From: Parasphingopyxis algicola
Lineage (GTDB): Bacteria; Pseudomonadota; Alphaproteobacteria; Sphingomonadales; Sphingomonadaceae
Assembly: GCF_013378075.1 (NCBI RefSeq)
Contig: NZ_CP051131.1
Span: forward strand, 2,988,501-3,052,500
Reading direction: 5' to 3'
DNA length: 64,000 nt
Both the position numbers and the translations under genes were made by a program. Under the pieces are notes generated by a model. The model had not been told where the DNA came from, ran no database searches, and saw nothing but the letters and a program-made list of their open reading frames with translations. How positions within the stretch are numbered: position 1 is the stretch's first letter; the number at the start of each line of letters is the position of its first letter. Positions 5,787 to 50,633 of this stretch are shown here, in pieces.

Positions 5787-6016
5787 TTTTTTGTCAGACT
5801 CGACCTGTCGGTCGAGCGCGGCAGTTTCCTTTTGTCAGAATTTTCCTTGCGGAAAATCGCGGCACCGGCCCGCACCCCCTCCCGACCTCCCATTGAGTGT
5901 ACCCTAGTGGGAGGTCGGGAGGGGGTGCGGGCCGGTGCCGCGCTCGACCGTCGGGTCGAGTCTGACAAAAAGACTCCGGTGCGGCGCCCGAGCGAAGCGA
6001 AGGTCTGACAAAAACT
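5787..6016. repeat. Nested palindromic repeat array: one full 133-bp copy (inverted) plus two half copies
   Basis: The full copy spans 5834-5966. GTCAGA is followed by a hairpin (5840-5846 with 5851-5857), a 35-bp perfect hairpin (5858-5892 with 5908-5942, 15-nt loop) and a third hairpin (5943-5949 with 5954-5960), then closing TCTGAC. The loop is close to the reverse complement of the loop at 6538-6670, so this copy is inverted relative to the others. A left half copy (5793 to about 5825, with its CTCGACC hairpin) precedes it and a right half copy (about 5976-6013, ending TCTGACA) follows. No gene lies in the 298-bp gap. Confidence 0.9.
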
Positions 6017-6082
6017 GTCCCCCGCAACCGATCGCCAATCCGCACGCTTGATCGCGGGCGCTCGGCCGCCCAAATCAACACC

Positions 6083-6487
6083 ATGGCGACGTTGCACATT
6101 ACCAAGCCCGCCGTCGGATGCGATTCGATCGCCCGTATCCGGCAACGGCAAGCCCCGCGTATCGCCGATGGCGAGGTCACGATCACGACCCGCTACCGGC
6201 CGACGCGCCATGAGGAGCTGATCGGCGGTTCGATCTTCTGGATCATCAAGCACCGGCTCGTCGTCCGCCAGCGGATCCTCGGTTTCGTCGAGAGCGACGA
6301 CGGCCGCTGGAACATCCGGCTCGACCCAAGGCTCATCCCGGTCCGCGCCCGCCCGAAGCGGGCGCACCAGGGGTGGCGCTATCTGAAAGGCGAGGATGCG
6401 CCGGCGGATTTCGACGGCGACGAGGACGGGATCGCCGAGATGCCGGCCAAGATGCTCAACGAGCTGGCGCGGCTGGGGTTGGTGTGA
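6083..6487 (+). CDS. DUF1489 family protein
   Basis: 134 aa, close to the usual length of DUF1489 proteins, which are conserved in Alphaproteobacteria and have no established function. The opening LHITKPAVGCDS, the central STYRP-like segment TTRYRPTRHEELIGGSI and the tail segment GWRYLKGEDAP match the family pattern. It is soluble, without a signal peptide or membrane segment. The ATG at 6083 was chosen because the domain begins immediately after it, although no clear Shine-Dalgarno site is present. It stands alone between two copies of the palindromic repeat family. Confidence 0.8.
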   Translation: MATLHITKPAVGCDSIARIRQRQAPRIADGEVTITTRYRPTRHEELIGGSIFWIIKHRLVVRQRILGFVESDDGRWNIRLDPRLIPVRARPKRAHQGWRYLKGEDAPADFDGDEDGIAEMPAKMLNELARLGLV

Positions 6488-6537
6488 AGCGTTGATCCGG
6501 CTGTCGGTTTCGTTTGGGGAGCGGCGATTTCATCTTG

Positions 6538-6670
6538 GTCAGACTCGACCTTTCGGTCGAGCGCCGCACCAGCCCTCTCCCCCTCCCGGCCTCCCAACAG
6601 GGTACACTCAATGGGAGGCCGGGAGGGGGAGAGGGCCGGTGCGGCGACGTTGCGCGAGCAACGTTCTGAC
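6538..6670. repeat. Palindromic repeat family, full copy (133 bp)
   Basis: GTCAGA (6538-6543) and TCTGAC (6665-6670) close a unit of three hairpins: CTCGACC/GGTCGAG with loop TTTC, a long GC-rich hairpin of about 35 bp with a loop containing GGGTACACTCAA, and ACGTTGC/GCAACGT with loop GCGA. Length and order match the copies at 5834-5966, 20461-20592 and 50501-50633. It lies between convergent genes (DUF1489 and the GIN-domain protein). Confidence 0.9.
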
Positions 6671-6677
6671 AAAGTAT

Positions 6678-6716
6678 GCCCGGTGCCGCGACGTTGCGCG
6701 AGCAACGTTCTGATAA
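6678..6716. repeat. Right half copy of the palindromic repeat
   Basis: CCGGTGCCGCG is followed by the same ACGTTGC-GCGA-GCAACGT hairpin as the full copy just before it, then TCTGATAAG. It repeats the right end of the unit. It ends one base before the stop codon of the convergent GIN-domain gene (6718). Confidence 0.8.
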
Positions 6717-6717
6717 G

Positions 6718-7446
6718 TTAACGCCTGTCCAGGAATCCGCCGCAGCTGACCCGGCCCGATCCGACGCTGCGGTCGGTGCAGGCGGCGTTGCCGGAGACGA
6801 TCACGACGCCGTTGCCGACCGCCGTCACATCGGCCTCGCGCTCGGCCGCGATCTCGATACTGCCGGGGCCGTTGAGGTTGACGGTCAGATCGTCGACGGT
6901 GAGCCCCGCGCCCGCAACCGTGCCCGGGCCTTCGACCGTCACGCGGCCCGTCTCGGCATGGCCGCCCACTTCCATGATGCCCGCGCCGGTCACCGCCAGC
7001 GCGATATGATCGGCGTCGATCTCGCCGACCGCGAGCCGGCCGTTGCCGCCGAGGCTGGCGAGCAGCCGTCCGCCTTCCATCCGGTCGATCTCGAGATCGC
7101 CGGTACCGATGACCGTCGCCTGCTCGATTTCGTGGGTGGTCAGGTAGAGGATCGCCGATTGCGTCTCGCGTTCGCCCGGATAGCCGCCCCAATTGCTGGA
7201 AACGTTGCGGCGGACGCGCAGTGTGTTGCCGACGACCTGCACCGCAATCTCGTTGATCGCGCGGTGATGGCCTTCGGCATAGGCCGAGGATCCCCTTCCG
7301 GTGGTGACGCGGACGACAAACGGGCCCTGGACCTGGATCCGGTCGAAGCCGGTTACCGAATAGCCGCGCCGTTCGGCCGCCGCCGGTATCGCCAAAGTCA
7401 GGGTCAGTATCGATGCGATCGCTACGATCACCGCTCTTGCGATCAT
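6718..7446 (-). CDS. GIN-domain (DUF2807) secreted beta-helix protein
   Basis: 242 aa. A signal peptide is evident (hydrophobic stretch to about residue 25, AIPAAAERR). The rest is a repetitive, glycine-rich sequence with many VxGxG, LNGPGSIEI and VTGAGIMEV-like turns, the pattern of the DUF2807 right-handed beta helix (head, GIN domain). It is presumably periplasmic or on the cell surface; function unknown. Its ATG overlaps the stop of the upstream methyltransferase by 4 nt (ATGA), so translation is coupled. The open frame extends far upstream to 8079, but only the part from 7446 has a signal peptide and coherent composition. Confidence 0.82.
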   Translation of the reverse strand: MIARAVIVAIASILTLTLAIPAAAERRGYSVTGFDRIQVQGPFVVRVTTGRGSSAYAEGHHRAINEIAVQVVGNTLRVRRNVSSNWGGYPGERETQSAILYLTTHEIEQATVIGTGDLEIDRMEGGRLLASLGGNGRLAVGEIDADHIALAVTGAGIMEVGGHAETGRVTVEGPGTVAGAGLTVDDLTVNLNGPGSIEIAAEREADVTAVGNGVVIVSGNAACTDRSVGSGRVSCGGFLDRR

Positions 7447-8063
7447 ATCCTGGCTTCTCCCAATTCGACCCAGCCGGCCCAGCGCGGCGATTTTTCCATA
7501 TAGCCCTGCTCCTGCTCGCCGATCTTGAACCCGGCCCGGGCGATCGCCGCGCTGACCGGGCGGGTGAGATGGCAGCCGCCGCCGATCCGCTTCCAGACCG
7601 GTTCGATCCGCCGCTGCCATTTGGCGACCGATGCATCGGGAGCGGCGCCATGTTCGCAGAACAGCAACCGCCCCTCGGGTTTGAGGACGCGGCGCGCCTC
7701 GGCCAGCGCTTGCGCCTGGTCCTGCACCGAACACAGGGTGAAGGTCGTCAGCACCGTATCGAAGCTCGCATCGGGAAAGGGGAGGGCCTCGGCTATCCCG
7801 GGTTCGATATTGAACGGAATGCCTTCGGTCTTGGCGGCCTGATGCGCGCGGGTCAGCAGTTCGGGCGATGGGTCGACGCCCTCGACGCTGGTCACCTGAT
7901 GCGGGTCGTACAGCGCGAAATTGGCGCCGCCTCCGGCACCCAGCTCGAGCACCCGGCCGTGCGCGCGCGGCACGACCTTGGCGCGGCGTTTCATGACCGG
8001 CGGCTGCGTGCAGCAAAAGCCGATCAGGCGCGGTACGACGTATCTTTCCCAAAGCCCTGCCAT
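7443..8063 (-). CDS. Class I SAM-dependent methyltransferase
   Basis: 206 aa. SAM-binding motif I VLELGAGGGAN lies near residue 38, the acidic motif II GVDPSPELL near 64, and a post-motif SFDTVLTTFTLCSV near 99, followed by LKPEGRLLFCEHG. This is the Methyltransf_11 (UbiE-like) fold, and similar short proteins resemble phosphatidylethanolamine or small-molecule methyltransferases. The protein is cytosolic and its substrate is not predictable. It overlaps the downstream GIN gene by 4 nt and is divergent from the ArsR gene at 8153. Confidence 0.85.
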   Translation of the reverse strand: MAGLWERYVVPRLIGFCCTQPPVMKRRAKVVPRAHGRVLELGAGGGANFALYDPHQVTSVEGVDPSPELLTRAHQAAKTEGIPFNIEPGIAEALPFPDASFDTVLTTFTLCSVQDQAQALAEARRVLKPEGRLLFCEHGAAPDASVAKWQRRIEPVWKRIGGGCHLTRPVSAAIARAGFKIGEQEQGYMEKSPRWAGWVELGEARI

Positions 8064-8104
8064 CGCCTGATCGTGCCACGCGTGACTCTCCTCTGCCAGC
8101 GCTA

Positions 8105-8146
8105 AATAATTAAGAATTGACTTAATTAAGTAATCTCTTAATTATT
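8105..8146. promoter_or_regulatory. Symmetric triple-box operator upstream of arsR-like gene
   Basis: CTTAATTAAG (8121-8130) is flanked by the perfect inverted arms AATAATTAAGA (8105-8115) and TCTTAATTATT (8136-8146). All three boxes share one centre of symmetry at 8125.5. The 42-bp AT-rich block sits directly before the ArsR start codon in GC-rich DNA, as expected for an ArsR operator. It could also control the divergent methyltransferase gene. Confidence 0.7.
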
Positions 8147-8152
8147 AGATCC

Positions 8153-8455
8153 ATGGATGGTTTTGCAGCCCTCAGCGATTCGACACGGCGCGACATCGTG
8201 ACCCTGTTGGCGCGGGGCGAGCAGCGCGCCAGTGCGATCGCCACGGGTTTCGAGATGACGGCGCCCGCCATTTCGCAGCATCTGAAAGTTCTGCGCAAGG
8301 CCGGCCTCGTGACCGTGGAAAAGCGCGGACGCGAGCGGGTCTACCGCCTCGATCCGGCCGGTCTTGCCGAGATGGAGCGATGGGTCGCCCGGACGCGGCG
8401 GTTGTGGAACGGGCGTCTCGATGCGCTCCAGCAGGTACTGGACGGGGAGGAATGA
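8153..8455 (+). CDS. ArsR-family winged-helix regulator
   Basis: 100 aa, the usual size. FAALSDSTRRDIVTLLARGE opens the domain, and the recognition helix region is MTAPAISQHLKVLRKAGLV (residues about 40-58), with the wing at EKRGRERVYRL. It has no metal-binding cysteines, so it belongs to the non-metal group often paired with SRPBCC proteins. The ATG lies only 7 nt after the palindromic operator and has no Shine-Dalgarno sequence, so the mRNA may be leaderless. The SRPBCC gene follows after 1 nt. Confidence 0.9.
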   Translation: MDGFAALSDSTRRDIVTLLARGEQRASAIATGFEMTAPAISQHLKVLRKAGLVTVEKRGRERVYRLDPAGLAEMERWVARTRRLWNGRLDALQQVLDGEE

Positions 8456-8456
8456 C

Positions 8457-8996
8457 ATGAAGGAAGAATTCGGTACGCAGCTGGAAAACGGGTCCTTGCG
8501 CTTCGTGCGCGATCTGCCCGGGCCGATCGAAAGGGTCTGGGAGCATTTCGTCGATCCGGCCAAACGCGCGCTCTGGTTCTGCGGCGGTACGATGACCGAA
8601 ACCCCGGGTGAGACCTTTACTATGGTCTTCGACCATGGCCGGCTATCGGACGAGGCATTTCCCGATCGGTTCGCCGAACTGAAGGGCGGCGTGTCCTTCG
8701 AGGTGAAGCTGGTCGAATTCGATCCGCCCCGCCGCCTCGTCTTCCGCGATTTCACCCATGCCGGGGAGGATGGCGAGGTGCAGGTCGAACTCGAACCCGC
8801 CGGCGACCGGGTCCGGCTGACCCTGATCCAGTCGCCGAATCACGAGTTCGCCCAGCTGATCAGCGCGGCCGCCGGCTGGCAGGCGCATCTCGGCCTGCTG
8901 ATCGATGCGCTGACCGGCGATCCGCGGCGCGCCTTCTGGGCCGAACATGCGACGGCCGAGGAACATTATCGCGCGGCGCTCAGCCCGCTGTCCTGA
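8457..8996 (+). CDS. SRPBCC (AHSA1-like) protein
   Basis: 179 aa. It has the START-like fold pattern: FVRDLPGPIERVWEHFVDP near residue 14, KRALWFCGG, then FEVKLVEFDPPRRLVFRD and the C-terminal helix LISAAAGWQAHLGLLIDAL. These AHSA1-like proteins bind hydrophobic ligands; the ligand here is unknown. GGGGAGGA ends just before the ATG, which lies 1 nt after the ArsR stop, so the two genes are co-translated. A similar ArsR-SRPBCC pair occurs at 54141-54912. The start at 8457 was preferred over the longer frame from 8364. Confidence 0.87.
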   Translation: MKEEFGTQLENGSLRFVRDLPGPIERVWEHFVDPAKRALWFCGGTMTETPGETFTMVFDHGRLSDEAFPDRFAELKGGVSFEVKLVEFDPPRRLVFRDFTHAGEDGEVQVELEPAGDRVRLTLIQSPNHEFAQLISAAAGWQAHLGLLIDALTGDPRRAFWAEHATAEEHYRAALSPLS

Positions 8997-9016
8997 TCCG
9001 GGCCGTGTCTGCCAGC

Positions 9017-9688
9017 TTACTGGTAGAAGATATGACCGCCGATCTGGGCGACCCGCTGACGCGTCCGCGAGAAACCGGGGCGCACATAGCGCGCGTGGAA
9101 GAACAGGGCCTCGCCGACCATCGGCTCGCTGATGCCGTTGCGGGCATCGATCGCGATGTCGACCATGCGGTCCCAGAGCGGGCCCGAGCGATTGGGTTGG
9201 TGGCGGCGGATATTCGAAAATTGCCGGCGCTGATAGACGACGCCGCAGATCGTGTCGGGGAAAAGCGGTGAGGCGACGCGGTTCATCACGACCTGCGCGA
9301 CGGCGAGCTTGCCATCGCGGGGTTCGCCTCGCGCTTCATTGCTGATCGTGCGGACCAGGCATTCCAGCTCGTCGTCATGCGCGTCGTTGATCGCGACGGC
9401 CGCCGTCGTTTCGTCTTGGTCGGTCGCTTCTGTCGCCGTCGTTTCCTCGGCGCTGCCGACATCTTCGCTCAATGCGTCGAGGTCGATCACCGGCTCTTCG
9501 ATCGGCTTGGCCAGTATGTCCGGCAGCGACGCATCGAAGCCGGCTTCGGCCAGAAGCTCGTCATCCTCAGCGGCAATCGCCGTTTCGCCCGTTCCGGCGG
9601 CGAAACCGGTTGCCATCGGCACCGCGGCAATCGCGGCGGCGGCCATGGCGGACATTCCAAAAATCACTCGCTTACGTCCGAAGGACAT
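9017..9688 (-). CDS. SleB-type cell wall hydrolase
   Basis: 223 aa. An N-terminal signal/anchor (residues 8-35, alanine-rich) is followed by an acidic low-complexity linker to about 120. A Hydrolase_2 (SleB) domain covers the C-terminal 100 residues: the catalytic segment TISNEARGEPRDGKLAVAQV includes the expected Glu, followed by VMNRVASPLFPDTICGVVYQ and QFS. It probably cleaves peptidoglycan in the periplasm. GGAG lies 5 nt before the ATG at 9688; the frame runs on to 9781 but without a sensible start. The 409 bp upstream hold no gene. Confidence 0.87.
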   Translation of the reverse strand: MSFGRKRVIFGMSAMAAAAIAAVPMATGFAAGTGETAIAAEDDELLAEAGFDASLPDILAKPIEEPVIDLDALSEDVGSAEETTATEATDQDETTAAVAINDAHDDELECLVRTISNEARGEPRDGKLAVAQVVMNRVASPLFPDTICGVVYQRRQFSNIRRHQPNRSGPLWDRMVDIAIDARNGISEPMVGEALFFHARYVRPGFSRTRQRVAQIGGHIFYQ

Positions 9689-10097
9689 AAAAACTCCATC
9701 GCGTGCGCCAAATGGCGCGGGCCGGCGCCAAAACATACTCGAAACTAATTGCTGACCCGCTCTGCATTTCACGGCTTGCAAGATGGACGCGGTCGCGACG
9801 CATCTGTGCCTTGTTGACCCCGTAATTGTATTGTGCAGTGCAGCATTACAAGTTGATTACGATGAGCCGTGGACCCAACACGACGACTTGCGCAACAAAA
9901 TTACACGATTTTCGTGGCGTTGGAATCACTAAGTCTTTGAAAAATATAGACCGTTAACCAGTATCAAAATGAAACTTGCTGAATTTTTGATAAATTCGGG
10001 CCTGTGCGGAAGGGACTCGCCGTTCGGTGCCCGGCTCTGCTAGTTTCGTCACGGAGAATCGCTCGCAATATCGTCTGGAGCGACATTGGGGGACCTG
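9689..10097. other. 409-bp intergenic region between divergent sleB-like and capA-like genes
   Basis: No coding sequence was found. The segment from about 9800 is AT-richer than its surroundings. It contains an inverted repeat TATCAAAA (9962-9969) and TTTTGATA (9985-9992), a GAATC (GANTC) site near 9925 and a CACGA/TCGTG pair near 9905. It presumably holds the two divergent promoters. Confidence 0.5.
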
Positions 10098-11360
10098 ATG
10101 CGGCGATCGCGCCTCACTGTATTCATGGTCACCGGCCTGGTCGCCGGGACGATTCTGGGGTCCTGTACCGAAGCCCGGACGGCGCCGCGCGCGATGGTCA
10201 TCAGCCAGCAATCCGCGAACGCACCGGTGGTCGCCGAATCGGCGGCCGAGGCTCCCGCGGTGGACGAGCCCGTGGCCGGCGTCCCGGCGGAAACACCCGA
10301 AGCGGCCGCCGACGGCGTCACCGCGCCCGAACAGCCCGAAGCGACGGTTCCGGACGACCCGCGCACCTATACGATCCTCGGCGTCGGCGACATCATGATG
10401 GGCAGCGACTGGCCCGAGCCCGGCATGGACCCGCGCGTCATACCGGGCGGCGATCCGGCGATGGTGATGGGGCCCGCACTCGCCGCGATCTTCGGCGAAG
10501 CGGATGCCGTGTTCGGCAATTATGAGGGTACGATCCACACCAGCGACGAAGATGCCAAGACCTGCGGCAATCCGGAATTCTGCTATGTCTTCCGCAGCCC
10601 GCCCTTTCATGCCGATTATCTGAGGCGTGCCGGTTTCACGATCATGTCGCATGCCAACAACCATGCCCGCGATTTCGGCGAGAGCGGCCGCACCGCGACC
10701 TATGAGAATCTCACCCGCACCGGCATGGCGGTGGCCGGCGGCGATCGCGACGGGATGCGGATCGGCATCCAGACGCTCGACGACGGCCGTCGTGTCGCGC
10801 TCGTCGCGTTCGGGCACAATCCGGGTCTGCTCAGCGTCCAGAATTATGCGCGCGTTGGCGAGATGGTGCGCGCGGCCGATGCGCAGGCCGATATCGTCAT
10901 GGTCTCGTGCCATATCGGCGCGGAAGGCGCGCGCTATGATCGGGTCACGCGCGAGACCGAGATGTATCTCGAGGAAGACCGCGGCAACCCCTTCCGTTTC
11001 GCGCGCGCCGCCGTCGATGCCGGGGCCGATATCGTCTTCTGCCACGGGCCGCATATCCCGCGGGCGGTCGAGGTCTATCAGGGGCGGTTCATCGCCTACA
11101 GCCTCAGTAATTTCTGGACCTATGGCCGGTTCAACCTGCGCGGGCATAATGGCCTTGCCCCGGTCGCCCGGCTCGAGGTCGATGGCGAGGGCGCGCTGGT
11201 TTCGGCCGATATCGTGTCCGCGCGGCAGGATCGCCCCGGCGGGCCCTATCTCGATCGCAGCAACGCGGCCGCCCAGCGGACCGCCGTGCTGACGGCGCGC
11301 GATTTCCCCGAAAGCCGAGTGCGGATCGGGTTCGACGGCCGGCTCGACTGGCCGCGCTAG
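10098..11360 (+). CDS. CapA-family lipoprotein (metallophosphatase fold)
   Basis: 420 aa. A lipoprotein signal ends in TILGSC (Cys near residue 22), followed by an Ala/Pro/Glu-rich linker to about 88. The CapA domain has GVGDIMMG, GNYEGTI, MSHANNHARDFG, CHIGAEG and FCHGPHIPRAVEVYQGR, which match the metal-binding motifs of the PGA_cap (calcineurin-like) fold. CapA itself belongs to poly-gamma-glutamate capsule systems, but no capB, capC or capD is present here, so an orphan cell-envelope role is more likely. GGGGGA precedes the ATG at 10098; the in-frame TTG at 10086 is less likely. Confidence 0.85.
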   Translation: MRRSRLTVFMVTGLVAGTILGSCTEARTAPRAMVISQQSANAPVVAESAAEAPAVDEPVAGVPAETPEAAADGVTAPEQPEATVPDDPRTYTILGVGDIMMGSDWPEPGMDPRVIPGGDPAMVMGPALAAIFGEADAVFGNYEGTIHTSDEDAKTCGNPEFCYVFRSPPFHADYLRRAGFTIMSHANNHARDFGESGRTATYENLTRTGMAVAGGDRDGMRIGIQTLDDGRRVALVAFGHNPGLLSVQNYARVGEMVRAADAQADIVMVSCHIGAEGARYDRVTRETEMYLEEDRGNPFRFARAAVDAGADIVFCHGPHIPRAVEVYQGRFIAYSLSNFWTYGRFNLRGHNGLAPVARLEVDGEGALVSADIVSARQDRPGGPYLDRSNAAAQRTAVLTARDFPESRVRIGFDGRLDWPR

Positions 11361-11369
11361 GACATCAAC

Positions 11370-12269
11370 CTAGGCGTTACTGCCGTCCTCCCCGGTATCG
11401 AACTTGTCCCGCCGCCGGTTGCCGAACAGCATCCGCCGTTCGAGCCGCGTGCTGAGCGCCGCGTAGTAAGCGCTCAGGAACGCCCGGTCCTCTTCCTCCT
11501 CACGCCATTCCCAGCCGATCTTGCCGCGAATGGTCGCCGCGACGTTCGCCTCGGTTTCGGCATTGCCCGCGCGCAGCACGTTTTCGAGCGTCTGCAGTTC
11601 ATATTCGCCATAGGCGTCGAGCTGGTCCTCGGTGAAGGCGAAAGCGCCGGCCGCCTCGCCATTGCCGCCGGCGAGATCGATTTCGAGCTTGCGGCGCGGG
11701 GCATGGACGACCCAGGTCCCTGCGACGATGTCGCCGACGCGCAGCCGGTCCCGGTTGAACAGCGGGAAGAAGAGGAAGATTCCGGCCCAGGCCAGGCCGA
11801 TCAGCGCGATCCACCCGTCCACGCCCTCGCCGCCCGCCAGGAAGGAAAGCGGCAGGAAGACCTCGATCTCGCGCATCAGGTTGCGGGCGATGACGGCATC
11901 GGCGGTCAACCGCCCGCCGTCGCGCGCCACGACCCGAAGCCCGACCGCCCGTTTTCCGAGTGTTGCCGACCGCCGGCCGATCTCGAAGGCGATGAAATAG
12001 AAATTCCGCAGCAGGAAGAAGCCGAGCAGCCAGATCACCGCGACGATCTCCAGCCCGGCGAGCGAGCCCGATCCGACGGTTCCCAGCCCCGCCGAGACGA
12101 CGGCGATGGTGAAGGCGGTGAGGATGACGATCAGCAGGATGAAATCGATGAGGAAGGCCCCGGCGCGCTGGCCGGCGGTGGCGAGTTTGAGCCGGAGATC
12201 GACGCCTTCGGGCGTGATCAGCGTGCGCTCGGTCGCGCCATAGGGCAGGGCCGGGTTAATGCTCGCCAT
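11370..12269 (-). CDS. RDD-family membrane protein
   Basis: 299 aa. The RDD domain is at residues about 28-165: AGQRAGAFLIDFILLIVIL (first membrane helix), a second helix near 70-95, and IGRRSATLGKRAVGLRVV, with a further helix near 150-170. The C-terminal 120 residues are soluble and charged. It is the last gene of the MoxR operon; RDD proteins are common partners of SpoIIM-like proteins in such operons, with a suggested transport or envelope role. It overlaps the SpoIIM-like gene by 14 nt, supporting the start at 12269 rather than the open frame to 12389. Confidence 0.85.
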   Translation of the reverse strand: MASINPALPYGATERTLITPEGVDLRLKLATAGQRAGAFLIDFILLIVILTAFTIAVVSAGLGTVGSGSLAGLEIVAVIWLLGFFLLRNFYFIAFEIGRRSATLGKRAVGLRVVARDGGRLTADAVIARNLMREIEVFLPLSFLAGGEGVDGWIALIGLAWAGIFLFFPLFNRDRLRVGDIVAGTWVVHAPRRKLEIDLAGGNGEAAGAFAFTEDQLDAYGEYELQTLENVLRAGNAETEANVAATIRGKIGWEWREEEEDRAFLSAYYAALSTRLERRMLFGNRRRDKFDTGEDGSNA

Positions 12270-13266
12270 CGCCGAGCCTCGGAACGTAGAAATAGGCACA
12301 CCAGGTCGCGAACATCGCGGCGGCGATCGCGTAGCGCGTCCAGTCGTCGGTGATGAGCTGGCGGCCGAACCCCTCGAGCAATCCGGCAAAAAGCAGCATC
12401 ACGATCACGCCGATCATCGCGGTCGCCGCCGTGCGACCCGCGCGCCGCGCCGCGGCCAGCCGGCTCTCCATGCCCGGAAAGATGATCTTCGTGCCGATAT
12501 GCAGTCCCGCTGCCCCGGCAAGCGCGATGGCGAACAGTTCGGTCGAACCGTGGATCAGCAGCCAGCCGCCCAGTTCGAAGCCCAGTCCATTGTCCACGAA
12601 CAGCGCGACGAACGCGCCGAGTATCGCGCCATTATAGACCATCAGCAGCGCGGTCGGGACGCCGAAAGCGAAGCCCAGCGCGAAGGCGAAGATCGAGACC
12701 TGGGCATTGTGGGTGAAGAGATAGGTGGCGAACACGCCGAGCCCGTTGCGCTCGTTATCGTCATAGAGTGTCGCGCGCAGCGCCTCGGCGGTCGCGTCCG
12801 GCCCGCGCTCCGCGGCGAGGCCGCTCGGGATGATCGCGTTGAACCAGCTCGGATCGTTGCTGACCAGGAGATAGGCGGCGATCGTCCCGGCCAGCATCAG
12901 GACGATGGCGATCAGCGTCTCGCGCCAGATGCGGCGGACGGCCGCCGGCCAGTCGTTCGTGAAGAAATGCATGGCCCGCTGCCCGAAGCTCGTGCGGACG
13001 CCGTAGACGAAGAAATAGGCGCGCGTGCACAGCCCTTCGAGATAGGCGATCAGCGCCATGTCGAGCGACGTCGCCCGGGCGACCGACAGCGCCGACAGCG
13101 CGGACCGGTAGAGGACGGGCAGTTCGAGCAGATCCTCGTCCGAGAGCCTCCTCACCGAGCCGCCCTCGGCCCGGCGGAGCAGTTCCTCGAGGCGCGCCCA
13201 GTCGGCCTCGCGTTCTTCCCGGAACGTCGTGCTGCTGAAGATCGCCTGACCGGCCACGCGTTCCAT
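12256..13266 (-). CDS. SpoIIM-like (stage II sporulation protein M) membrane protein
   Basis: 336 aa. A soluble N-terminal helical part (FREEREADWARLEELLRR) precedes about five to six membrane helices from residue 115 (ETLIAIVLMLAGTIAAYLL; VSIFAFALGFAFGVPTALL; ATAMIGVIVMLLFAGLLEG; AIAAAMFATWCAYFYV). GGWLLIHGSTELFAIALAG is a family hallmark. The organism is not a sporulator; this family is widespread in MoxR operons. The start overlaps the DUF58 stop (TGATG), showing coupling. Confidence 0.87.
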   Translation of the reverse strand: MERVAGQAIFSSTTFREEREADWARLEELLRRAEGGSVRRLSDEDLLELPVLYRSALSALSVARATSLDMALIAYLEGLCTRAYFFVYGVRTSFGQRAMHFFTNDWPAAVRRIWRETLIAIVLMLAGTIAAYLLVSNDPSWFNAIIPSGLAAERGPDATAEALRATLYDDNERNGLGVFATYLFTHNAQVSIFAFALGFAFGVPTALLMVYNGAILGAFVALFVDNGLGFELGGWLLIHGSTELFAIALAGAAGLHIGTKIIFPGMESRLAAARRAGRTAATAMIGVIVMLLFAGLLEGFGRQLITDDWTRYAIAAAMFATWCAYFYVPRLGDGEH

Positions 13267-14609: not shown

Positions 14610-14628
14610 GCGAGTGGCACCAACCGAT

Positions 14629-14760: not shown

Positions 14761-14814
14761 CTCTGTCGGAGATTGCCGCCCTCCATCGCCCGACTGAAAA
14801 GTTATCGCTGTCGC

Positions 14815-15760
<946 letters not shown>

Positions 15761-20460: not shown

Positions 20461-20592
20461 GTCAGACTCGACCTGTCGGTCGAGCGCCGCACCAGCCCTC
20501 TCCCCCTCCCGGCCTCCCACTCGGTATACTCTATGGGAGGCCGGGAGGGGGAGAGGGCTGGTGCGGCGATTTCGCGCTAGCGAAATTCTGAC
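20461..20592. repeat. Palindromic repeat family, full copy (132 bp)
   Basis: GTCAGA (20461-20466) and TCTGAC (20587-20592) close three hairpins: CTCGACC-TGTC-GGTCGAG, the long GC hairpin with a loop containing CGGTATACTCTA, and ATTTCGC-GCTA-GCGAAAT. It fills the whole gap between two convergent genes, beginning 2 bp after the mtnP stop and ending 3 bp before the radical SAM stop codon. Confidence 0.92.
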
Positions 20593-41404: not shown

Positions 41405-41440
41405 ATGCAGAGCCGGTCGCGGGCCCCGGGCGGCGCCCGG

Positions 41441-41896: not shown

Positions 41897-42027
41897 CCGG
41901 TCCTCCCCTCTTGGCCCGGAGACTGCGGCAATATGACCGGACTGGCAAGCGGGATGCGATCCGGCAGGCTGTTCCCGACCGTGTTTCGCCGCTAGGCTGG
42001 CGCGGTATTTCGAGGGAGGAGGGCGCC

Positions 42028-42447
42028 ATGCGCAATGCGGTTTTCTGGGTCGTCGCACTATTGGCGCTGCTGTGGAACGGCTTCGGGCTGTACGATCTCT
42101 ACATGACGCTGACGATCAACCGGGAGTATCTCGCGCAGTTCCCGCCGGAGATGATGGCGATGATCGAAGCCTTTCCCGAATGGCGGCGCCTGCTCTGGAC
42201 GACGAGCGTGTTTCTCGGGGTGATCGCAGCCGTTTTGCTGCTGCTGCGCCGCGCGATGGCCGAACGGGTTTTCTGGGCGACGGCGGTCACGATGGCGGCG
42301 GGCTTCATCGGCTACGACCTGCCCTTCGGAAACGGGTTGGAGGCCTATGGGGTGTTCGGCGTCATCTTTTCCTTCGTTCTGATCGCTGTTCAGATCGTCT
42401 TGGCTCTTTACGCGCGCTGGGCGGCGCGGCATGCATTGATCAAATAG
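42028..42447 (+). CDS. Small four-helix membrane protein, unrecognised
   Basis: 139 aa. Four hydrophobic helices are evident: [56 protein letters not shown] and [19 protein letters not shown]. Between helices 1 and 2 is [31 protein letters not shown] precedes the ATG at 42028. Similar small inner-membrane proteins of unknown role occur widely in Alphaproteobacteria. The E2 gene follows after 29 nt, so co-transcription is possible. Confidence 0.75.
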
Positions 42448-42476
42448 ACGCCGACATTCGAAGCCGAGGACATGCG

Positions 42477-43889: not shown

Positions 43890-43905
43890 CGCAAGGAGAT
43901 GGGCG

Positions 43906-44535
43906 ATGAAAATTGCGGTGATCGGCAAGGGCCGGGTCGGCAGCGTTTTGGGGCCGGCTTTTGCCAAGGCCGGGCATGAGGTCGTGTACGGCGTTCGCGA
44001 GCCGGCCGACGAAAAATACGACAATGGCGACGAGATCCCGCACGATACGACCGAAGGCGCGGCGCAATGGGGCGAAGTCGTCATCCTGGCCGTCGACTGG
44101 AGCGTCGCCGAAAGCGCGCTCGCCGAGTGCGGCGATCTCGGCGGCAAGATCCTGATCGATTGCACCAATCCGCTGACCATGGGCGAGGAGGGCCTCGAAC
44201 TGGCACTGGGTTTCGATACGTCGGCCGGCGAAATATTGGCGGGGCAGACGGCTGCGAAGGCGGTGAAGACGCTCAATCAGGTCGGATCGCCGGTGATGGG
44301 AATGGCGCATGCTTTCCCGAACCGTCCGATCCAGTTCGTGGCCGGCGAGGATGAAGACGCCAAGGCGCTGGTCAGCAGCCTGTTGCGCGATATCGGCTTC
44401 GAGCCCATCGATTATGGCGGGATCCGGAACGCTCGCCAACTGGAGCCGCTCGCGATGGTCTGGATCGACCAGGCGTTCAAACACGGGATGGACCCGCAAA
44501 CGGCGTGGCATTTTATGAAAGCAGACGGTGACTAA
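43906..44535 (+). CDS. NADPH-dependent F420 reductase-like / NAD(P)-binding protein
   Basis: 209 aa. An N-terminal Rossmann motif KIAVIGKGRVGSVLGPAFAKAGHEVVYGVREP is clear. The rest follows the NADP oxidoreductase, coenzyme F420-dependent family (ILIDCTNPLTMG, KTLNQVGSPVMGMA). In bacteria lacking F420 these proteins may act on other acceptors. It sits between E2 and lipoamide dehydrogenase; its stop overlaps the lpd start (TAATG), so it is in the operon, but its role in pyruvate oxidation is unknown. Confidence 0.85.
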   Translation: MKIAVIGKGRVGSVLGPAFAKAGHEVVYGVREPADEKYDNGDEIPHDTTEGAAQWGEVVILAVDWSVAESALAECGDLGGKILIDCTNPLTMGEEGLELALGFDTSAGEILAGQTAAKAVKTLNQVGSPVMGMAHAFPNRPIQFVAGEDEDAKALVSSLLRDIGFEPIDYGGIRNARQLEPLAMVWIDQAFKHGMDPQTAWHFMKADGD

Positions 44536-45932
44536 TGGCTAACCAATATGATCTCATCATCCTCGGTTCCGGACCCGGCGGCTATGTTGCGGCGATCCGG
44601 GCGTCGCAGCTCGGCATGAAGGTGGCGATCGTCGAGCGGGAGAAGCTCGGCGGCATCTGTCTCAACTGGGGGTGCATCCCGACCAAGGCGCTGCTGCGGA
44701 CGAGCGAGATCTACCATTATATGACCCATGCCGAGGCCTATGGGCTGAAGGCCGAGAAGCCGGGTTTCGATCTCGCCAAGGTCGTCGAGCGCTCGCGCAC
44801 GGTGGCGGGACAGCTCAACCAGGGTGTCACCGGCCTGATGAAGAAGAACAAGGTCGATGTGCATGAAGGCTTCGGCACGATCACGGCCAGGGGCAAGCTG
44901 ACCGTCGAGAAGGACGGCAAGAAAACGGAACTCGCCACCAAGACGATCATAATCGCCACCGGCGCCCGCGCCCGCGATCTGCCGTTCGCTAAGGCGGACG
45001 GCAAGCGTATCTGGACCTACCGCCACGCGATGGTGCCCGAAGACGTGCCGTCCAAATTGCTGGTGATCGGTTCGGGTGCGATCGGCATCGAATTTGCGAG
45101 CTTCTATTCCGATATGGGCGCCGAGGTGACGGTCGTCGAAATGCTGCCGCGCATCCTTCCGGTCGAGGACGAGGACGTCTCCAAGCATATGGAGAAAACG
45201 CTCAAGAAGCAGGGCATGACGATCCTGACCGGCGCGGGCGTCGAAAAGCTCGAAGCCGGCGCGAAATCGGTCAAGGCGGCGATCAAGGACGCCAAGGGCA
45301 AGGTGACCGAGAGCGAGTTCAGCCACGCCATCGTTGCGATCGGCATCATGCCCAACACCGAAGACACGGGCATCGACACGCTCGGCGTGAAGACGGGCGA
45401 GAACGGTCATATCGACGTCGACGGCTTCGGTCGGACCAGTGTCGAGGGCATTCTCGCGATCGGCGATGTGACGGGGCCGCCCTGGCTCGCGCACAAGGCC
45501 AGCCACGAAGGCGTGGTCGCGGTCGAGAAGCTGGCGGGCCAGAACCCGCATGCCTTCGAGACCGGCAATATTCCGGGCTGCACCTATTCGCGGCCGCAGG
45601 TTGCGTCGGTCGGGATGACCGAGGCTCAGGCCAAGGAGGCCGGTCACACGGTCCGCGTCGGCAATTTCCCCTTTATCGGCAACGGCAAGGCGATCGCACT
45701 GGGCGAGGCCGAGGGTTTCGTCAAAACCGTATTCGACGAAAAGACCGGCGAGCTATTGGGCGCCCATATGATCGGCGCCGAGGTCACCGAACTGATCCAG
45801 GGCTATGCCGTCGCGCGGCAGCTGGAAACGACCGAGGCGGAACTGATGGAAACCGTCTTCCCGCATCCGACATTGAGCGAAATGATGCATGAAAGCGTGC
45901 TCGCCGCCTATGACCGGGTGCTGCACATCTGA
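44535..45932 (+). CDS. lpdA: Dihydrolipoyl dehydrogenase (E3)
   Basis: 465 aa, full length. The FAD motif IILGSGPGGYVAAIRAS, the redox disulfide GGICLNWGCIPTKALLR, the NAD motif LVIGSGAIGIEFASFYS, the second FAD motif GILAIGDVTGPPWLAHKAS and the C-terminal catalytic HPTLSEMMHE are all present. It reoxidises the lipoyl groups of E2 and passes electrons to NAD+. Its placement two genes after E2 suggests service for pyruvate dehydrogenase in particular. Confidence 0.97.
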   Translation: MANQYDLIILGSGPGGYVAAIRASQLGMKVAIVEREKLGGICLNWGCIPTKALLRTSEIYHYMTHAEAYGLKAEKPGFDLAKVVERSRTVAGQLNQGVTGLMKKNKVDVHEGFGTITARGKLTVEKDGKKTELATKTIIIATGARARDLPFAKADGKRIWTYRHAMVPEDVPSKLLVIGSGAIGIEFASFYSDMGAEVTVVEMLPRILPVEDEDVSKHMEKTLKKQGMTILTGAGVEKLEAGAKSVKAAIKDAKGKVTESEFSHAIVAIGIMPNTEDTGIDTLGVKTGENGHIDVDGFGRTSVEGILAIGDVTGPPWLAHKASHEGVVAVEKLAGQNPHAFETGNIPGCTYSRPQVASVGMTEAQAKEAGHTVRVGNFPFIGNGKAIALGEAEGFVKTVFDEKTGELLGAHMIGAEVTELIQGYAVARQLETTEAELMETVFPHPTLSEMMHESVLAAYDRVLHI

Positions 45933-46406
45933 TCAGCCCGTACCCGGCCGCGTGCCGTTCTGCGCATAGTCCGCGATCAGCTGCTGATAGTCTTCCATTT
46001 CGGGGAATGCCTCGAAACTGCGCTGGGCCGGCAGCTCGACCCAAGACAGTTGTTCGGCCGTCATGACTTCGATAAAGGGCACGTCCCAGTGCGGCTCTTC
46101 GAGCATCATCGTGCGGACATTGACGATCCAGTCGGCGCCGTGCGGCTTGGAATAGACCCAGCTCTTGCAGCTGTCGCAAAAGAATTGCCCGTGCGGGCCG
46201 CGAAGGCCGCCTTTCACGCCTTCGCCCTCCGTCACGCGGAAGCCTTCGGCCGGCACCATCAGCGAAAGCGAAAAGGCGCTCGCCGTCAATCGTTGGCAGC
46301 CCCGGCAATGGCACGCCATCGAGAGCAGCGGCGTGGCGCTGATCTCGAACTTCAGATCGCCGCACAAACACTGCCCGGTCCATGGCAATCCCCAATCCTC
46401 GTTCAT
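45933..46406 (-). CDS. GFA family (Gfa-like, CENP-V fold) protein
   Basis: 157 aa. Zinc-binding cysteine pairs of the GFA fold are visible: GQCLCGDLKFEI, ACHCRGCQRLTASAF and FFCDSCKSWVYSK. Despite the family name most members do not catalyse formaldehyde-glutathione formation; the function is unknown. Its stop codon directly abuts the lpdA stop codon on the other strand (45932/45933), so the genes are convergent with no spacer. Confidence 0.9.
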   Translation of the reverse strand: MNEDWGLPWTGQCLCGDLKFEISATPLLSMACHCRGCQRLTASAFSLSLMVPAEGFRVTEGEGVKGGLRGPHGQFFCDSCKSWVYSKPHGADWIVNVRTMMLEEPHWDVPFIEVMTAEQLSWVELPAQRSFEAFPEMEDYQQLIADYAQNGTRPGTG

Positions 46407-46485
46407 GTGGCGGTTCCTTTCCTGCCCCTCGACGGGCGACCGACACTATAGCATAGCGGCATCCCATCGAGAGAGGGACATGATC

Positions 46486-47766
46486 ATGATCGCAAGGCTC
46501 GCAATCGTTACCTATCTGCTGCTGTTTTCGGCGGCGCTTCACGCCGAAACGCTCGTCGTCACCGCCGACCGGATGGTCGACGTGCTCGAGGGGCGGGCGA
46601 TCGACAATCCGGTGGTCGTGGTCACCGACGGCCGGATCGTCTCGGTCTCGAGCGGCGAAGTGCCGGCCGATCTGCCCGAGGACGCCGAGCGGCTCGATCT
46701 CGCGGGCATGACGATCCTGCCCGGGCTGATCGACATGCATGTCCATCTGACGACCACGCCGCGGATCGGCGGCTTCCGGCGGCTCAACTATACCGACAGC
46801 TTCTGGACGACGCTCGGCGTACCCAACGCGCGCGCGATGCTCGAATCGGGGTTCACGACCGTGCGCAACGTCGGCGCCGACGATTATGCCGACGTCGCGC
46901 TGCGCCAAGGTATCGAGGCCGGCTTCTATCCCGGACCGCGGATCGTCGCCGCGACCGAGTCCTTCGGGGTGACGGGCGGGCATTGCGACCGCAACGGCCT
47001 GCCGCCGTCGCTCGTCGACCGGGACGGAGAGCAGGGCGTCAACGGCGTGGAGGCCGTCCGCCTGCAGATTCGGCAGAACCGGCGCTATGGCGCCGATGTC
47101 ATCAAGATCTGCGCGACCGGCGGCGTTTTCTCCCGCAACACCGATGTCGGCGCCCAGCAGATGACGGCCGGGGAAATCCGCGCCGCGGTCGAGGAGGCGC
47201 ATATGCTCGGGATGCGCGTCGCGGCCCATGCGCATGGCAATGCCGGTATCCGTGCCGCGATCGAGGCCGGCGTCGATACGATCGAACATGCGAGCTATCT
47301 CGACGACGAGACGATCCGCATGGCGATCGACCGCGGCACCTTTTTCTCGATGGATATCTACAACACCGAATATACGCTGGCCGAGGGCGAGGCGAACGGC
47401 GTGCTGGAGGAAAATCTGGCGAAGGAGCGGCAGGTCGGGACGATCCAGCGCGAGAGCTTCCGCCGGTCCGTCGAGCTCGGCGCGCGGCATGTGTTCGGGT
47501 CGGATGCAGGCGTCTATCCGCATGGTACCGGCGGCCGGCAGTTTGCGCGCATGGTGCGGTTCGGGATGACGCCGCTTCAGGCGATCCAGGCCGCGACCGC
47601 CAATGCCGCCGAAGCGCTCGACAAGATGGGCGATGTCGGCGCGATCGCGCCGGGCCGATATGGCGATATCATCGCCGTGGATGGCGACCCGCTGGCCGAC
47701 ATCGCCGCGTTGGAAGATGTCGACATCGTCGTCAAGGGCGGCGAACTCGTCATGGACCGCCGTTGA
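46486..47766 (+). CDS. Secreted metal-dependent amidohydrolase (imidazolonepropionase-like)
   Basis: 426 aa. A signal peptide ends near residue 20 (FSAALHAET). Metal-site motifs appear in order: LIDMHVHLTT, VIKICATGG (Lys), RVAAHAHGNAG, TIEHASYLD and HVFGSDAGVYPHG, followed by ALDKMGDVGAIAPGRYGDIIAV. This is the periplasmic Xaa-Pro or prolidase-like amidohydrolase group. The ATG at 46480 is 2 nt from GAGGG, whereas 46486 is 8 nt away, so the latter was chosen. A second such enzyme lies at 58844-60106. Confidence 0.88.
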   Translation: MIARLAIVTYLLLFSAALHAETLVVTADRMVDVLEGRAIDNPVVVVTDGRIVSVSSGEVPADLPEDAERLDLAGMTILPGLIDMHVHLTTTPRIGGFRRLNYTDSFWTTLGVPNARAMLESGFTTVRNVGADDYADVALRQGIEAGFYPGPRIVAATESFGVTGGHCDRNGLPPSLVDRDGEQGVNGVEAVRLQIRQNRRYGADVIKICATGGVFSRNTDVGAQQMTAGEIRAAVEEAHMLGMRVAAHAHGNAGIRAAIEAGVDTIEHASYLDDETIRMAIDRGTFFSMDIYNTEYTLAEGEANGVLEENLAKERQVGTIQRESFRRSVELGARHVFGSDAGVYPHGTGGRQFARMVRFGMTPLQAIQAATANAAEALDKMGDVGAIAPGRYGDIIAVDGDPLADIAALEDVDIVVKGGELVMDRR

Positions 47767-47790
47767 CGCGCCCCACTTCCCGGCCTGGTT

Positions 47791-48270
47791 TTAGCCGGCC
47801 GTCGCCTGGGACGGTTTCGGCGCCGTTGCGGCGACCGGCTTCTCGTCGACCAGTTTGAGCGACGCGTCCTTCGGCTCGTCCTTTTTGAGCGTGCCGGCGC
47901 TTTTGTGCCGGAAGCTGCCTTCGACATGGCCGCCGGTGGCGATGCTCAGCTTTTCATAGGTCACATCGCCGACCACTTTGGCCGAGGCCTCGACGATCAG
48001 TTCCTTGGCCGCGATCGAGCCTTCCACGCGGCCGGCGATGCGCGCCTGTTCGGCGCTGATACCGCCCTTGATCGTGCTGTTGCCGGCCTGGACCAGCGTG
48101 GCGCAGCGAATATCGCCTTCGACGCGGCCATCGACATGCAAATCGACGGACGCATCGATATCGCCCGTGACGGTGACGTCCGAGCCGATGACCGAGAAGG
48201 TCGAGCGGTTATCCGCGCTCGACGGCATCGCCATTTCTTCGTCCTGCGACGGATTGGATTTCGAGAACAT
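47791..48270 (-). CDS. Bactofilin
   Basis: 159 aa. The central beta-helix (about 25-130) has the six-residue rhythm of bactofilins: STFSVIGSDVTVTGDIDAS, LHVDGRVEGDIRCATL, GNSTIKGGISAEQARIAGRVEGSI, KVVGDVTYEKL. The tails are charged and probably disordered. Bactofilins polymerise without nucleotide and position envelope enzymes. GGAGG lies 9 nt upstream. The first 62 nt overlap the M23 gene in another frame, as in other alphaproteobacterial peptidase-bactofilin pairs. Confidence 0.93.
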   Translation of the reverse strand: MFSKSNPSQDEEMAMPSSADNRSTFSVIGSDVTVTGDIDASVDLHVDGRVEGDIRCATLVQAGNSTIKGGISAEQARIAGRVEGSIAAKELIVEASAKVVGDVTYEKLSIATGGHVEGSFRHKSAGTLKKDEPKDASLKLVDEKPVAATAPKPSQATAG

Positions 48271-49372
48271 CGCGATCAGCCTCCAAAAGGGGCCGCGGGT
48301 TTACAGCGCGGCCGTTGATACGCACTTCATAGTGCAGGTGGGTGGCAGTCGAGCGGCCGGAGCTGCCCATCCTGCCGATACGATCCCCCCGGTCGACACG
48401 GTCCCCAACGCTCACATTGATGCCCGACAGATGCGCATAGCGGGTGACGACACCCGCACCATGATCGATTTCGATCGTCCGGCCATATCCGCCCTTCCAG
48501 CCGGCAAAGCGCACACGGCCGGGTCCGGTCGCCAGGATGCCCTGGCCATGGCGGCCGCGAAAATCGATGCCGTTATGCATTGCGCGGCCCCGTGTGAACG
48601 GGTCGCGGCGCAGGCCGAAGGGGCTGCTCATCGCACCATAGGCGGTCGGTTTGGCCGACGGTATCGCACGGAGCGACAGTTCCATCACCGCCAGGCGGTT
48701 CAGTGCGATTTCGAGATCGGCGATTTCCTCGTCGATCGCGCCGTCAAGCGTCATCGCCGTCCGGATCGGAATCAGCGGGCCGCCCTGCGCCCGGCGGCTC
48801 ATGACGCGCGGATCGAGCCCGAACTCGCGGATCGCCTCGGCGGTTTGCAGGGTGCGTTGCTCGACCGCGGCGCGCAGCGCGCGGGCGAATGCGACCTGAT
48901 GCTGCTCGAGCGCCTGCAAGGCGGCAGCTTCCGGAATCGCCGCGCTGCTTTCCTCGGCAGCCTCGGCGCCGTCGGCGGTCTCCGCCTCGTCTTCATTGTC
49001 TTCGAGATTGCCGAAATGGCGGCGGACCAGCGCATCGAGCACGGCCTGACGCCGCTCGACGCGGGCGACCTGCTCTTCGACGGTTCCGCGATAGGCGGCG
49101 ACGCGCGCTTCGGTCTGGGTGACCTCCTGTTCGCGCTGGTCAAGTGCGATTCGGTCACTCGCCCCTTTGACTTGCAGCCCGACCATGACCAGCGTGACCG
49201 CCAGCCATGCGACCGCGCCAAGCGCGGCGATCGACACCACTCTTATCTGTAACTTACTGGAAATTCTAAAAAAGCGGAGCTTGCCGCCGGAGCGGATATG
49301 GAGCTCATGGTCAGGAAAAAGGCCCTTGAACCGGGACCAAAGCCCCGGGCCTTCCTTTTTATTTCTAGACAC
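48209..49372 (-). CDS. M23 family peptidase, membrane-anchored (LmdC-like)
   Basis: 387 aa. A membrane helix at about residues 45-70 (VVSIAALGAVAWLAVTLVMVG) is followed by a coiled coil (IALDQREQEVTQTEARVAAY, VARVERRQAVLDALVRR) and the LytM domain at about 255-375: MHNGIDFRGRHGQGILATG and TATHLHYEVRING supply the HxxxD and HxH zinc ligands. It probably cuts peptidoglycan cross-links at sites marked by the bactofilin. The GTG at 49372 has AGGG 8 nt upstream; TTG codons further back to 49417 are alternatives. Four GANTC sites lie just upstream. Confidence 0.9.
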   Translation of the reverse strand: MSRNKKEGPGLWSRFKGLFPDHELHIRSGGKLRFFRISSKLQIRVVSIAALGAVAWLAVTLVMVGLQVKGASDRIALDQREQEVTQTEARVAAYRGTVEEQVARVERRQAVLDALVRRHFGNLEDNEDEAETADGAEAAEESSAAIPEAAALQALEQHQVAFARALRAAVEQRTLQTAEAIREFGLDPRVMSRRAQGGPLIPIRTAMTLDGAIDEEIADLEIALNRLAVMELSLRAIPSAKPTAYGAMSSPFGLRRDPFTRGRAMHNGIDFRGRHGQGILATGPGRVRFAGWKGGYGRTIEIDHGAGVVTRYAHLSGINVSVGDRVDRGDRIGRMGSSGRSTATHLHYEVRINGRAVNPRPLLEADRDVLEIQSVAGRRNGDAVERG

Positions 49373-49431
49373 GTGCAACCCTGTGAATTGAAATTTGTGC
49401 AAACCGGCTAGCAACAATGTGGTTAAATCGC

Positions 49432-49481
49432 GAGTCTAACGAACGATGGCGCGACGAATCGTTGGCGACTCGGGTCGAGTC
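49432..49481. promoter_or_regulatory. Cluster of four GANTC sites in a divergent promoter
   Basis: GAGTC (49432), GAATC (49456), GACTC (49467) and GAGTC (49477) fall within 50 bp, between the M23-bactofilin genes and the aminotransferase gene. GANTC is the target of CcrM methylase, and such clusters mark promoters controlled through cell-cycle methylation (GcrA-CcrM) in Caulobacter. Confidence 0.65.
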
Positions 49482-49558
49482 GACGGAACCCTAGAGAAAA
49501 GGCGGTTTCTTAAGATAGCTTTTACTTTGAATGGCGGGTGAACGCCGCGTATAGCGCC

Positions 49559-50485
49559 ATGATGGGCAAGGGAACGCACGACTATCGCGAGGATCCGCGC
49601 AACGCCGAGATTCTGATTAACGTCAATGGTAAAATCGTCCCCCGTGCCGAGGCCATGGTTTCGGTGTTCGATTCCGGCTTCATGCTGGGCGACGGTGTCT
49701 GGGAGGGGCTGCGGGTCCATCGGGAGCGGATCGCCTTTCTCGACCAGCATCTCGACCGGCTGTTCGAAGGCGCCAAGGCGATCGACATGGATGTCGGTAT
49801 CGATCGGGCAATGCTCGAGCGGCGGCTCTATGAAACGCTCGATGCCAACGGTTCTTCCGAAGGCGTTCATATCCGCCTCATGGTGACGCGGGGGATTCGT
49901 TCCACGCCCTATCAGGACCCGCGCGTCGTCGTGTCGCCGGCGACCATCGTCATCGTTCCCGAATATAAGGAGCCGTTGCCCGAAACCGTCGAGAAGGGCA
50001 TCCGGCTGTTCACCGTCCATGTCCGGCGCGGCGATCCGGCGGTGCAGGACCCCAAGCTCAATTCGCACTCCAAGCTCAATTGTATCACCGCCTGCATCCA
50101 GGCGACCAAGGCCGGCGCGGACGAGGCGCTGATGCTCGATCCGCAGGGCTTCGTCGCGACCTGCAATTCGACGCATTTCTTCATCGTGCGCAAGGGCGAG
50201 GTCTGGACGTCGAGCGGCGACTATTGCCTGGGCGGGATCACGCGCGGGACGGTGATCGATCTGTGCCGCGACGCCGATATTCCGGTGTTCGAGAAGAATT
50301 TCTCGCTGACCGATGTCTATGGCGCCGACGAGGCTTTCGTCACCGGCACCTTCGCCGGTGTCGTGCCGGTCACCGAGGTGGACGGGCGCGGGCTGACCGA
50401 AGCGCGCGGCCCGATGGTCGAGAGGCTGCAGGAACTGTATGCCGCCCGGCTCGCCACCGATGTCGCGGCGCGATCGCGGCCGTGA
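49559..50485 (+). CDS. Class IV aminotransferase (branched-chain or D-amino acid type)
   Basis: 308 aa from the ATG at 49559. SVFDSGFMLGDGVWEGLRV lies near residue 36 and the PLP-binding Lys is in LNSHSKLNCITAC near 163; NSTHFFIV and GGITRGTVIDLC follow. This is the fold-type IV aminotransferase family (IlvE, D-Ala transaminase, 4-amino-4-deoxychorismate lyase); the exact substrate is not clear. A GTG at 49538 is in frame. A P-loop sulfotransferase-like gene follows after a copy of the palindromic repeat. Confidence 0.87.
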   Translation: MMGKGTHDYREDPRNAEILINVNGKIVPRAEAMVSVFDSGFMLGDGVWEGLRVHRERIAFLDQHLDRLFEGAKAIDMDVGIDRAMLERRLYETLDANGSSEGVHIRLMVTRGIRSTPYQDPRVVVSPATIVIVPEYKEPLPETVEKGIRLFTVHVRRGDPAVQDPKLNSHSKLNCITACIQATKAGADEALMLDPQGFVATCNSTHFFIVRKGEVWTSSGDYCLGGITRGTVIDLCRDADIPVFEKNFSLTDVYGADEAFVTGTFAGVVPVTEVDGRGLTEARGPMVERLQELYAARLATDVAARSRP

Positions 50486-50500
50486 CAGGCTGTTTTTTCT

Positions 50501-50633
50501 GTCAGACTCGACCTGTCGGTCGAGCGCCGCACCGGCCCGCACCCCCTCCCGGCCTCCCAACAGGGTATATTCAATGGGAGGCCGGGAGGGGGTGCGGGCC
50601 GGTGCCGCGATTTCCTGCCAAGGAAATTCTGAC
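50501..50633. repeat. Palindromic repeat family, full copy (133 bp), inside an apparent operon
   Basis: GTCAGA (50501-50506) and TCTGAC (50628-50633) close the hairpins CTCGACC-TGTC-GGTCGAG, a long GC hairpin with a loop containing GGGTATATTCAA, and ATTTCCT-GCCA-AGGAAAT. It lies between the class IV aminotransferase and the sulfotransferase-like gene, which are on the same strand. Confidence 0.92.

Follow-up and report, generated by a model that had tools for sequence, protein, structure and literature searches.

A family of REPIN/BIME-like repeats in Parasphingopyxis algicola joins unlike side hairpins around a long palindromic core

Among described bacterial repeats, the closest to the element reported here are bacterial interspersed mosaic elements (BIMEs) and REPINs, paired repetitive extragenic palindromic (REP) units, that go with a REP-associated tyrosine transposase (RAYT). 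Like the present element, these combine inverted REP units with a paired spacer, compensatory changes and intergenic clustering, and show strand-specific features of loops and stems (PMC3116915, PMC6006769, PMC8266576). Both a clover and a long-hairpin fold have been considered for them, and in the legend to Figure S11 of PMC3116915 the REPIN authors regard the long hairpin as unlikely to be recognised and the clover as the form thought to be recognised. A survey of CGTC REPs notes that most families favour heterodimers, a preference that "has no obvious explanation" (PMC3733652). Here, we analysed a repeat found in a window of 64,000 nucleotides (positions 2,988,501 to 3,052,500 of contig NZ_CP051131.1), which is part of the 3,669,801-base single-contig genome of Parasphingopyxis algicola. 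In each full element, a long palindromic core separates two inverted units, built from a T-rich flank, the tag GTCAGA, a 7-bp hairpin and the tail CGCSGCACC. An initial annotation of the window had likened the repeat to REP/BIME elements, and the two inverted units with their palindromic core bear out this resemblance.

The genome contains 141 exact units of the form GTCAGA-N18-CGCSGC (72 on one strand, 69 on the other), compared with 2 matches of the pattern read backwards. A covariance model, the only one built and based on the core alone, gave at least 149 strand matches among 150 scored candidates, at about 75 places, which supports a large family. Within the window, the pattern GTCAGA-N18-CGCSGCAC matched 8 times versus 0 in 100 dinucleotide shuffles. 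We then fetched stretches around copies among the matches listed (165,374 bases in total, window included), and a relaxed scan of these yielded 203 units in 74 clusters. The tag GTCAGA is present in 177 of the 203, in a scan that itself tolerated only one mismatch to it, and T occupies the three bases preceding the tag in 79-91% of the 118 outermost units (79% at the base right before GTCAGA). Units form 67 inner head-to-head pairs, 59 of them dimers of standard length (126-141 bp, mode 133). Extra units outside the dimers point in the same direction and give 62 head-to-tail neighbour pairs, 60 of which are spaced at steps of 39-46 bp. The fetched clusters are unevenly placed, with 26 of the 74 between 2.57 and 2.94 Mb, a tenth of the chromosome, and the set is incomplete, as later cores also appeared in seemingly empty stretches, e.g. 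at 3,536,032. Ten core places outside the first set were fetched afterwards. Below, G-codes denote the genomes compared (G000 being that of the window) and L-codes the fetched loci. At loci L251-L256 (G000), no unit pair was detected around the core; L252 resembles a bare core, and L256 keeps its left hairpin next to a changed tag.

All four dimers of the window lie where the initial annotation had placed them (Table 1), and each folds, as single-stranded DNA (ssDNA), into the closed three-hairpin junction proposed there. In the minimum-energy structures (fold z-scores of -14 to -18), the central stem and two side hairpins of 7 bp each meet the 6-bp stem GTCAGA/TCTGAC, which closes the structure, at a branch point without unpaired bases, and this architecture is indeed fixed. 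Among the 59 standard dimers, the minimum-energy DNA fold contains both side hairpins, each of 5 bp or more, in 52. The near-constancy of one side hairpin turned out to be a small-sample effect: CTCGACC occurs in 32 of the 59 standard dimers and on either side. No Rfam family reached its gathering score at the repeats. The only match in the window, RF00519 (suhB/mmgR sRNA, a small RNA), lies elsewhere, at 778-861 on the minus strand (43.1 bits versus a gathering score of 41).

The paired substitutions noted in the four copies extend to the wider family. In an alignment of the 45 dimers sized 131-134 bp (of 55; the other 10 were left out), 97.0% of cells form standard pairs, compared with 85.2% after shuffling and 37.9-49.2% when slid. 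Cells changed on both sides number 279 versus 94.8 in shuffles, while further pair types (48 versus 44.3) hardly exceed the shuffles and were matched by 36 of 500 of them. Moreover, 94% of cells are paired across the unit hairpins that have a 4-nt loop (103 distinct ones), as against 57% when shuffled. Templated correction of quasi-palindromes is an established process, and since pairing on its own could come from it, the pairing is no proof of selection on shape.

A second regularity concerns which hairpins are combined. The side hairpins fall into about five interchangeable stem families, namely CTCGACC, ATTTyCC and kin, AACTTyC, ACrTTGC, and CCTTCGs with a tandem mismatch, which were delineated by eye from a listing and assigned by script afterwards. 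None of the 59 standard dimers combines two hairpins of the same family, where shuffles that take no account of shared descent gave a mean of 11.4 and a minimum of 2 in 20,000, and the smallest difference between partner hairpins is 6 of 14 bases. We rejected polar left and right ends as a description, as families occur on either side. Four further dimers of the same genome contain no alike pair (shuffle mean 1.3). In congeners, alike pairs number 0 of 11 in G002, 0 of 12 in G008 and 0 of 6 in G005, with shuffle means of 2.4, 5.3 and 1.8, the G008 and G005 loci having been picked by likeness to copy 4 (CTCGACC/ATTTCCT). This follow-up set comprised 33 pairs out of 43 loci, of which 10 were pairless, and G008 alone was significant on its own. 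What an alike pair entails is illustrated by locus L076, which folds into a single linear hairpin of 59 bp (-90 kcal/mol), whereas the window copies fold into clovers. As L076 starts 36 bases from a contig end, it might be an assembly artefact.

The loops of the side hairpins are strongly strand-asymmetric. Of 172 tetraloops, 154 have the tag-strand sequence T-N-N-C and hence GNNA on the complementary strand, where 144 of these 154 are closed by c..g; GNNA on the tag strand was found in 0 of 172. Seven of the eight three-base loops are GNA on the same complementary strand. In 176 hairpins compared, the complementary strand is the more stable in 153 and the tag strand in 14. Furthermore, the CCTTCGs family carries T.C and C.T mismatches on the tag strand and a tandem G.A opposite, retained in 29 of 29 copies of the main form, under an assignment in which a copy with restored pairing would also have counted as a member. 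GNNA loops (the d(cGNNAg) rule), GNA loops and tandem G.A favour folded DNA. The strand-specific loops fit folded single-stranded DNA better than RNA. The asymmetry recurs in other genera on unrelated stems, with 17 of 23 tetraloops following it and 0 reversing it, among 58 hairpins detected on 98 sides outside the P. algicola genome.

Table 1 Repeat dimers, extra units and palindromic core in the window.
Feature	Position in window	Strand	Description
Dimer copy 1	5834..5966	- (strand from central loop sequence)	ATTTTCC left, CTCGACC right, core between
Extra same-direction unit	5793..5822	+	CTCGACC; 41 bp before copy 1
Extra same-direction unit	5981..6009	-	CCTTCGC/GCTCGGG, 3-nt loop; after copy 1
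Dimer copy 2	6538..6670	+	Hairpins CTCGACC, ACGTTGC
Extra unit	6685..6714	-	ACGTTGC, tag end TCTGAT; after copy 2; counterpart at matching G002 place
Dimer copy 3	20461..20592	+	Hairpins CTCGACC, ATTTCGC
Dimer copy 4	50501..50633	+	Hairpins CTCGACC, ATTTCCT
Palindromic core of copy 4 (85 nt)	50525..50609	+	Part common to other Sphingomonadales

Comparison of matched sites in congeners shows extensive turnover. In the stretch upstream of the gene adjoining copy 1, none of the 9 congeners showed a unit, and G002, G007 and G009 have a short gap there. A tRNA-like stretch (TGTAGCTCAGCTGAGTAGAGCG...) lies at the place matching copy 1 in L158 (G005). The place of copy 2 holds nothing in G005 and G009, a lone unit in G002 and a different dimer in G007. 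At the place of copy 3, which in P. algicola lies 2-3 bp from the 3' ends of called genes on both flanks, G008 retains a deleted remnant with a different right hairpin, and no unit was detected in six other congeners (the G006 locus ends early and G003 is unmatched). Where units could be aligned, 26 of 33 belong to another stem family and 7 to the same one, excluding locus 51679, whose unmasked core matched other cores (7 of 40 rows: 6 different, 1 same). Cores can be up to 98.8% identical and yet carry one flanking hairpin from another family, and the junction is shared on one side at L076, L116, L161 and L170. This turnover points to a swapping of hairpins between copies, which would be the cause of the observed replacements. 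Hairpins with mixed arms were also found (CTCGACC with GGGAAAT at G000:C1:51836-51865; CCTTCG with CGCGAAAT at L263, G002), possibly as snapshots of recombination. Regarding the empty sites expected for a mobile element, element-free places do occur in congeneric species; a target duplication was not seen in the inspected flanks.

The repeat extends well beyond this genome. A DNA search matched 15 of 40 genomes, among them P. algicola and 9 of 9 congeners, and the core model matched at least 39 of 119 genomes of the family and at least 23 of 118 genomes of the order, the latter from three families, with P. algicola included in both counts and up to 38 candidates scored per genome. A plasmid search returned 3 records, mainly of the core, and phages gave no match. 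In plasmids of the genera Novosphingobium, Sphingomonas and Sphingopyxis, other tags and stems, e.g. GTTTG and CGTTTT, were read by eye next to the core; core and tag thus apparently evolve apart. We found no published description of the core or of the family in openly licensed papers.

On balance, we consider it probable that the family is a non-autonomous REPIN/BIME-like repeat that acts as an ssDNA clover, with swappable side hairpins and an unlike-partner rule that keeps the clover. The acting form is most likely ssDNA, e.g. at replication forks, where a single strand would fold into the four-armed clover. The complementary strand, with its stable GNNA or GNA hairpin loops and, in one family, the tandem G.A, would likely be the surface recognised by a trans-acting protein. 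The hairpins would serve as interchangeable modules swapped between copies, and unlike inner hairpins would hold the clover, as alike ones would collapse the element into one 59-bp hairpin. This locking of the clover would be the reason for the unlike-partner rule.

A number of observations weigh against this interpretation. The unlike-partner rule is not absolute: the pair 2690457/2690633 (spacing 177, ACATTGC kin), one of 8 head-to-head pairs of non-standard length, is alike, as are 2 of 42 pairs, L076 among them, in an earlier relatives set, whose genomes partly overlap the follow-up set and whose loci were partly picked by the CTCGACC pattern. The by-eye families, the selected G008 and G005 loci and the neglect of shared descent in the shuffles also count here. 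In addition, 7 of the 59 dimers fold with fewer than 5 bp in a side hairpin, 6 of the 10 extra cores lack a unit pair, and only 6 of 26 three-base loops in other genera follow the strand asymmetry (1 reverses it). As to swapping, 3 of the 26 replacements involve near variants (CTCGACC versus CTCGAAC kin, twice; ATTTCGC versus ACCTCGC, once), and at some other matched sites, insertions may have occurred independently in a single gap. As to mobility, no precise empty site was found in the congeneric species compared, and the highest whole-element identity among the 59 dimers is 96.2%, so no copies are recent. Finally, a transposase search, which covered the Y1 class only, gave 0 matches to PF01797 (Y1, RAYT-type) in the P. 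algicola genome and left 7 of 9 congeners without a match. The mobilisation by a REP-type transposase suggested in the initial annotation is accordingly not borne out.

More tentatively, the family might represent a RAYT-less REPIN-like lineage across Sphingomonadales, in which a shared core captures lineage-specific tags and hairpin cassettes. These cassettes would be swapped between copies on folded ssDNA, and the unlike-partner rule would keep nearly every element in a clover that a host or trans-acting enzyme would recognise.

The strongest rival attributes the pattern to palindrome instability alone. Like pairs, being perfect palindromes of 59 bp, would be deleted or repaired, and the paired changes would arise from arm copying in replication, with need for neither fold recognition nor current mobility. 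Apart from the templated correction mentioned above, this is consistent with the scarcity of like hairpins not only as inverted partners but also as direct neighbours (4 of 62 alike; shuffle mean 12.3), set beside 9 of 47 for an outer unit and the opposite inner unit. However, correction would erase the CCTTCGs tandem mismatch, which the main form keeps throughout, and it leaves the strand-asymmetric loops unexplained. Nor was the usual agent found. The gene sbcD, which encodes half of the main palindrome nuclease, was over the cut-off in 0 of 60 genomes (own included) and matched weakly in 8 of 60, the P. algicola genome not among them; of 14 controls, 13 matched and 8 were over the cut-off. 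We regard instability as the sole cause as unlikely.

The genomic context raises the possibility of an RNA-level element at gene ends, such as a 3' stabiliser, processing site or attenuator in mRNA. Of the 74 clusters, 12 were unclear and 20 short of flank. In the other 42, where a gene was called on either side, the flanking genes are co-directional for 22 clusters, convergent for 16 and divergent for 4, and many clusters lie within 15 bp of a stop codon, as judged from crude gene calls. The loops are not of stable RNA types (GNRA in 39 of the 154 GNNA loops, UNCG in 0 of 172 tetraloops), such an element would have no need for inverted symmetry or stem turnover, and the same position bias is described for REPs generally in a section of PMC3733652. 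This explanation appears improbable.

We give even less credit to an ordinary REPIN moved by a RAYT that P. algicola has since lost. It would account for the shared overall architecture and for the Y1 genes of two congeners. In the relatives set of 60 genomes, which includes that of P. algicola, PF01797 matched 12, with G006 and G008 as the only congeners; the repeat occurs in 9 of 9 congeners. The loci L066 (G006) and L070 (G008) contain Y1-type open frames of 230-235 amino acids, whose flanks of about 1.5 kb on each side lack an exact unit. The relatives have 17 Y1 matches, and all 12 of those whose loci were fetched are likewise free of exact units; the tag, moreover, differs from GTAG/GTGG. 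An existing RAYT association was rejected, given 0 matches to PF01797 here and the 12 Y1 loci without exact units. A miniature inverted-repeat transposable element (MITE) of a DDE transposase with terminal inverted repeats would be short and intergenic with inverted ends, as are the 126-141 bp elements, and we find it hardly credible given the absence of a target duplication in the inspected flanks (DDE-class transposases lay outside the search), ends that hold variable hairpins, and single units that form same-direction arrays.

Compared with REPINs and BIMEs that have a RAYT, the family thus differs in its GTCAGA tag in place of GTAG/GTGG, in a genome where no RAYT was found, in its several stem families with next to no alike pairs, and in a long core spread across an order. 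It resembles the ends of IS200/IS605 elements, whose hairpins are recognised strand-specifically via loop and mismatch cues according to the part of PMC8266576 concerned; in contrast, no transposase gene lies between the units here, and the genome has no Y1 match. As described in PMC3733652, CGTC REPs are likewise mostly alphaproteobacterial, have no associated transposase (only Y1 was searched here) and occur predominantly as head-to-head dimers. The variant tag TGTC is also listed there; most tags of the present family begin as TGTC but continue with AGA (TGTC-AGA). CGTC REPs have stems of 8-9 bp starting with AT, the tail CCA and a negligible share of head-to-tail arrangements, whereas the present family has 7-bp stems of several families, the tail CGCSGC and its many head-to-tail neighbours. 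As a widespread repeat for which no transposase is evident, the family reopens the question of how such repeats spread. Taken together, it joins the clover proposal for REPINs with the heterodimer puzzle of CGTC REPs, in that unlike partners would enforce the clover, and it offers a natural test of both ideas, with a near-absolute unlike-partner rule, a few alike exceptions and a loop asymmetry that names the strand.

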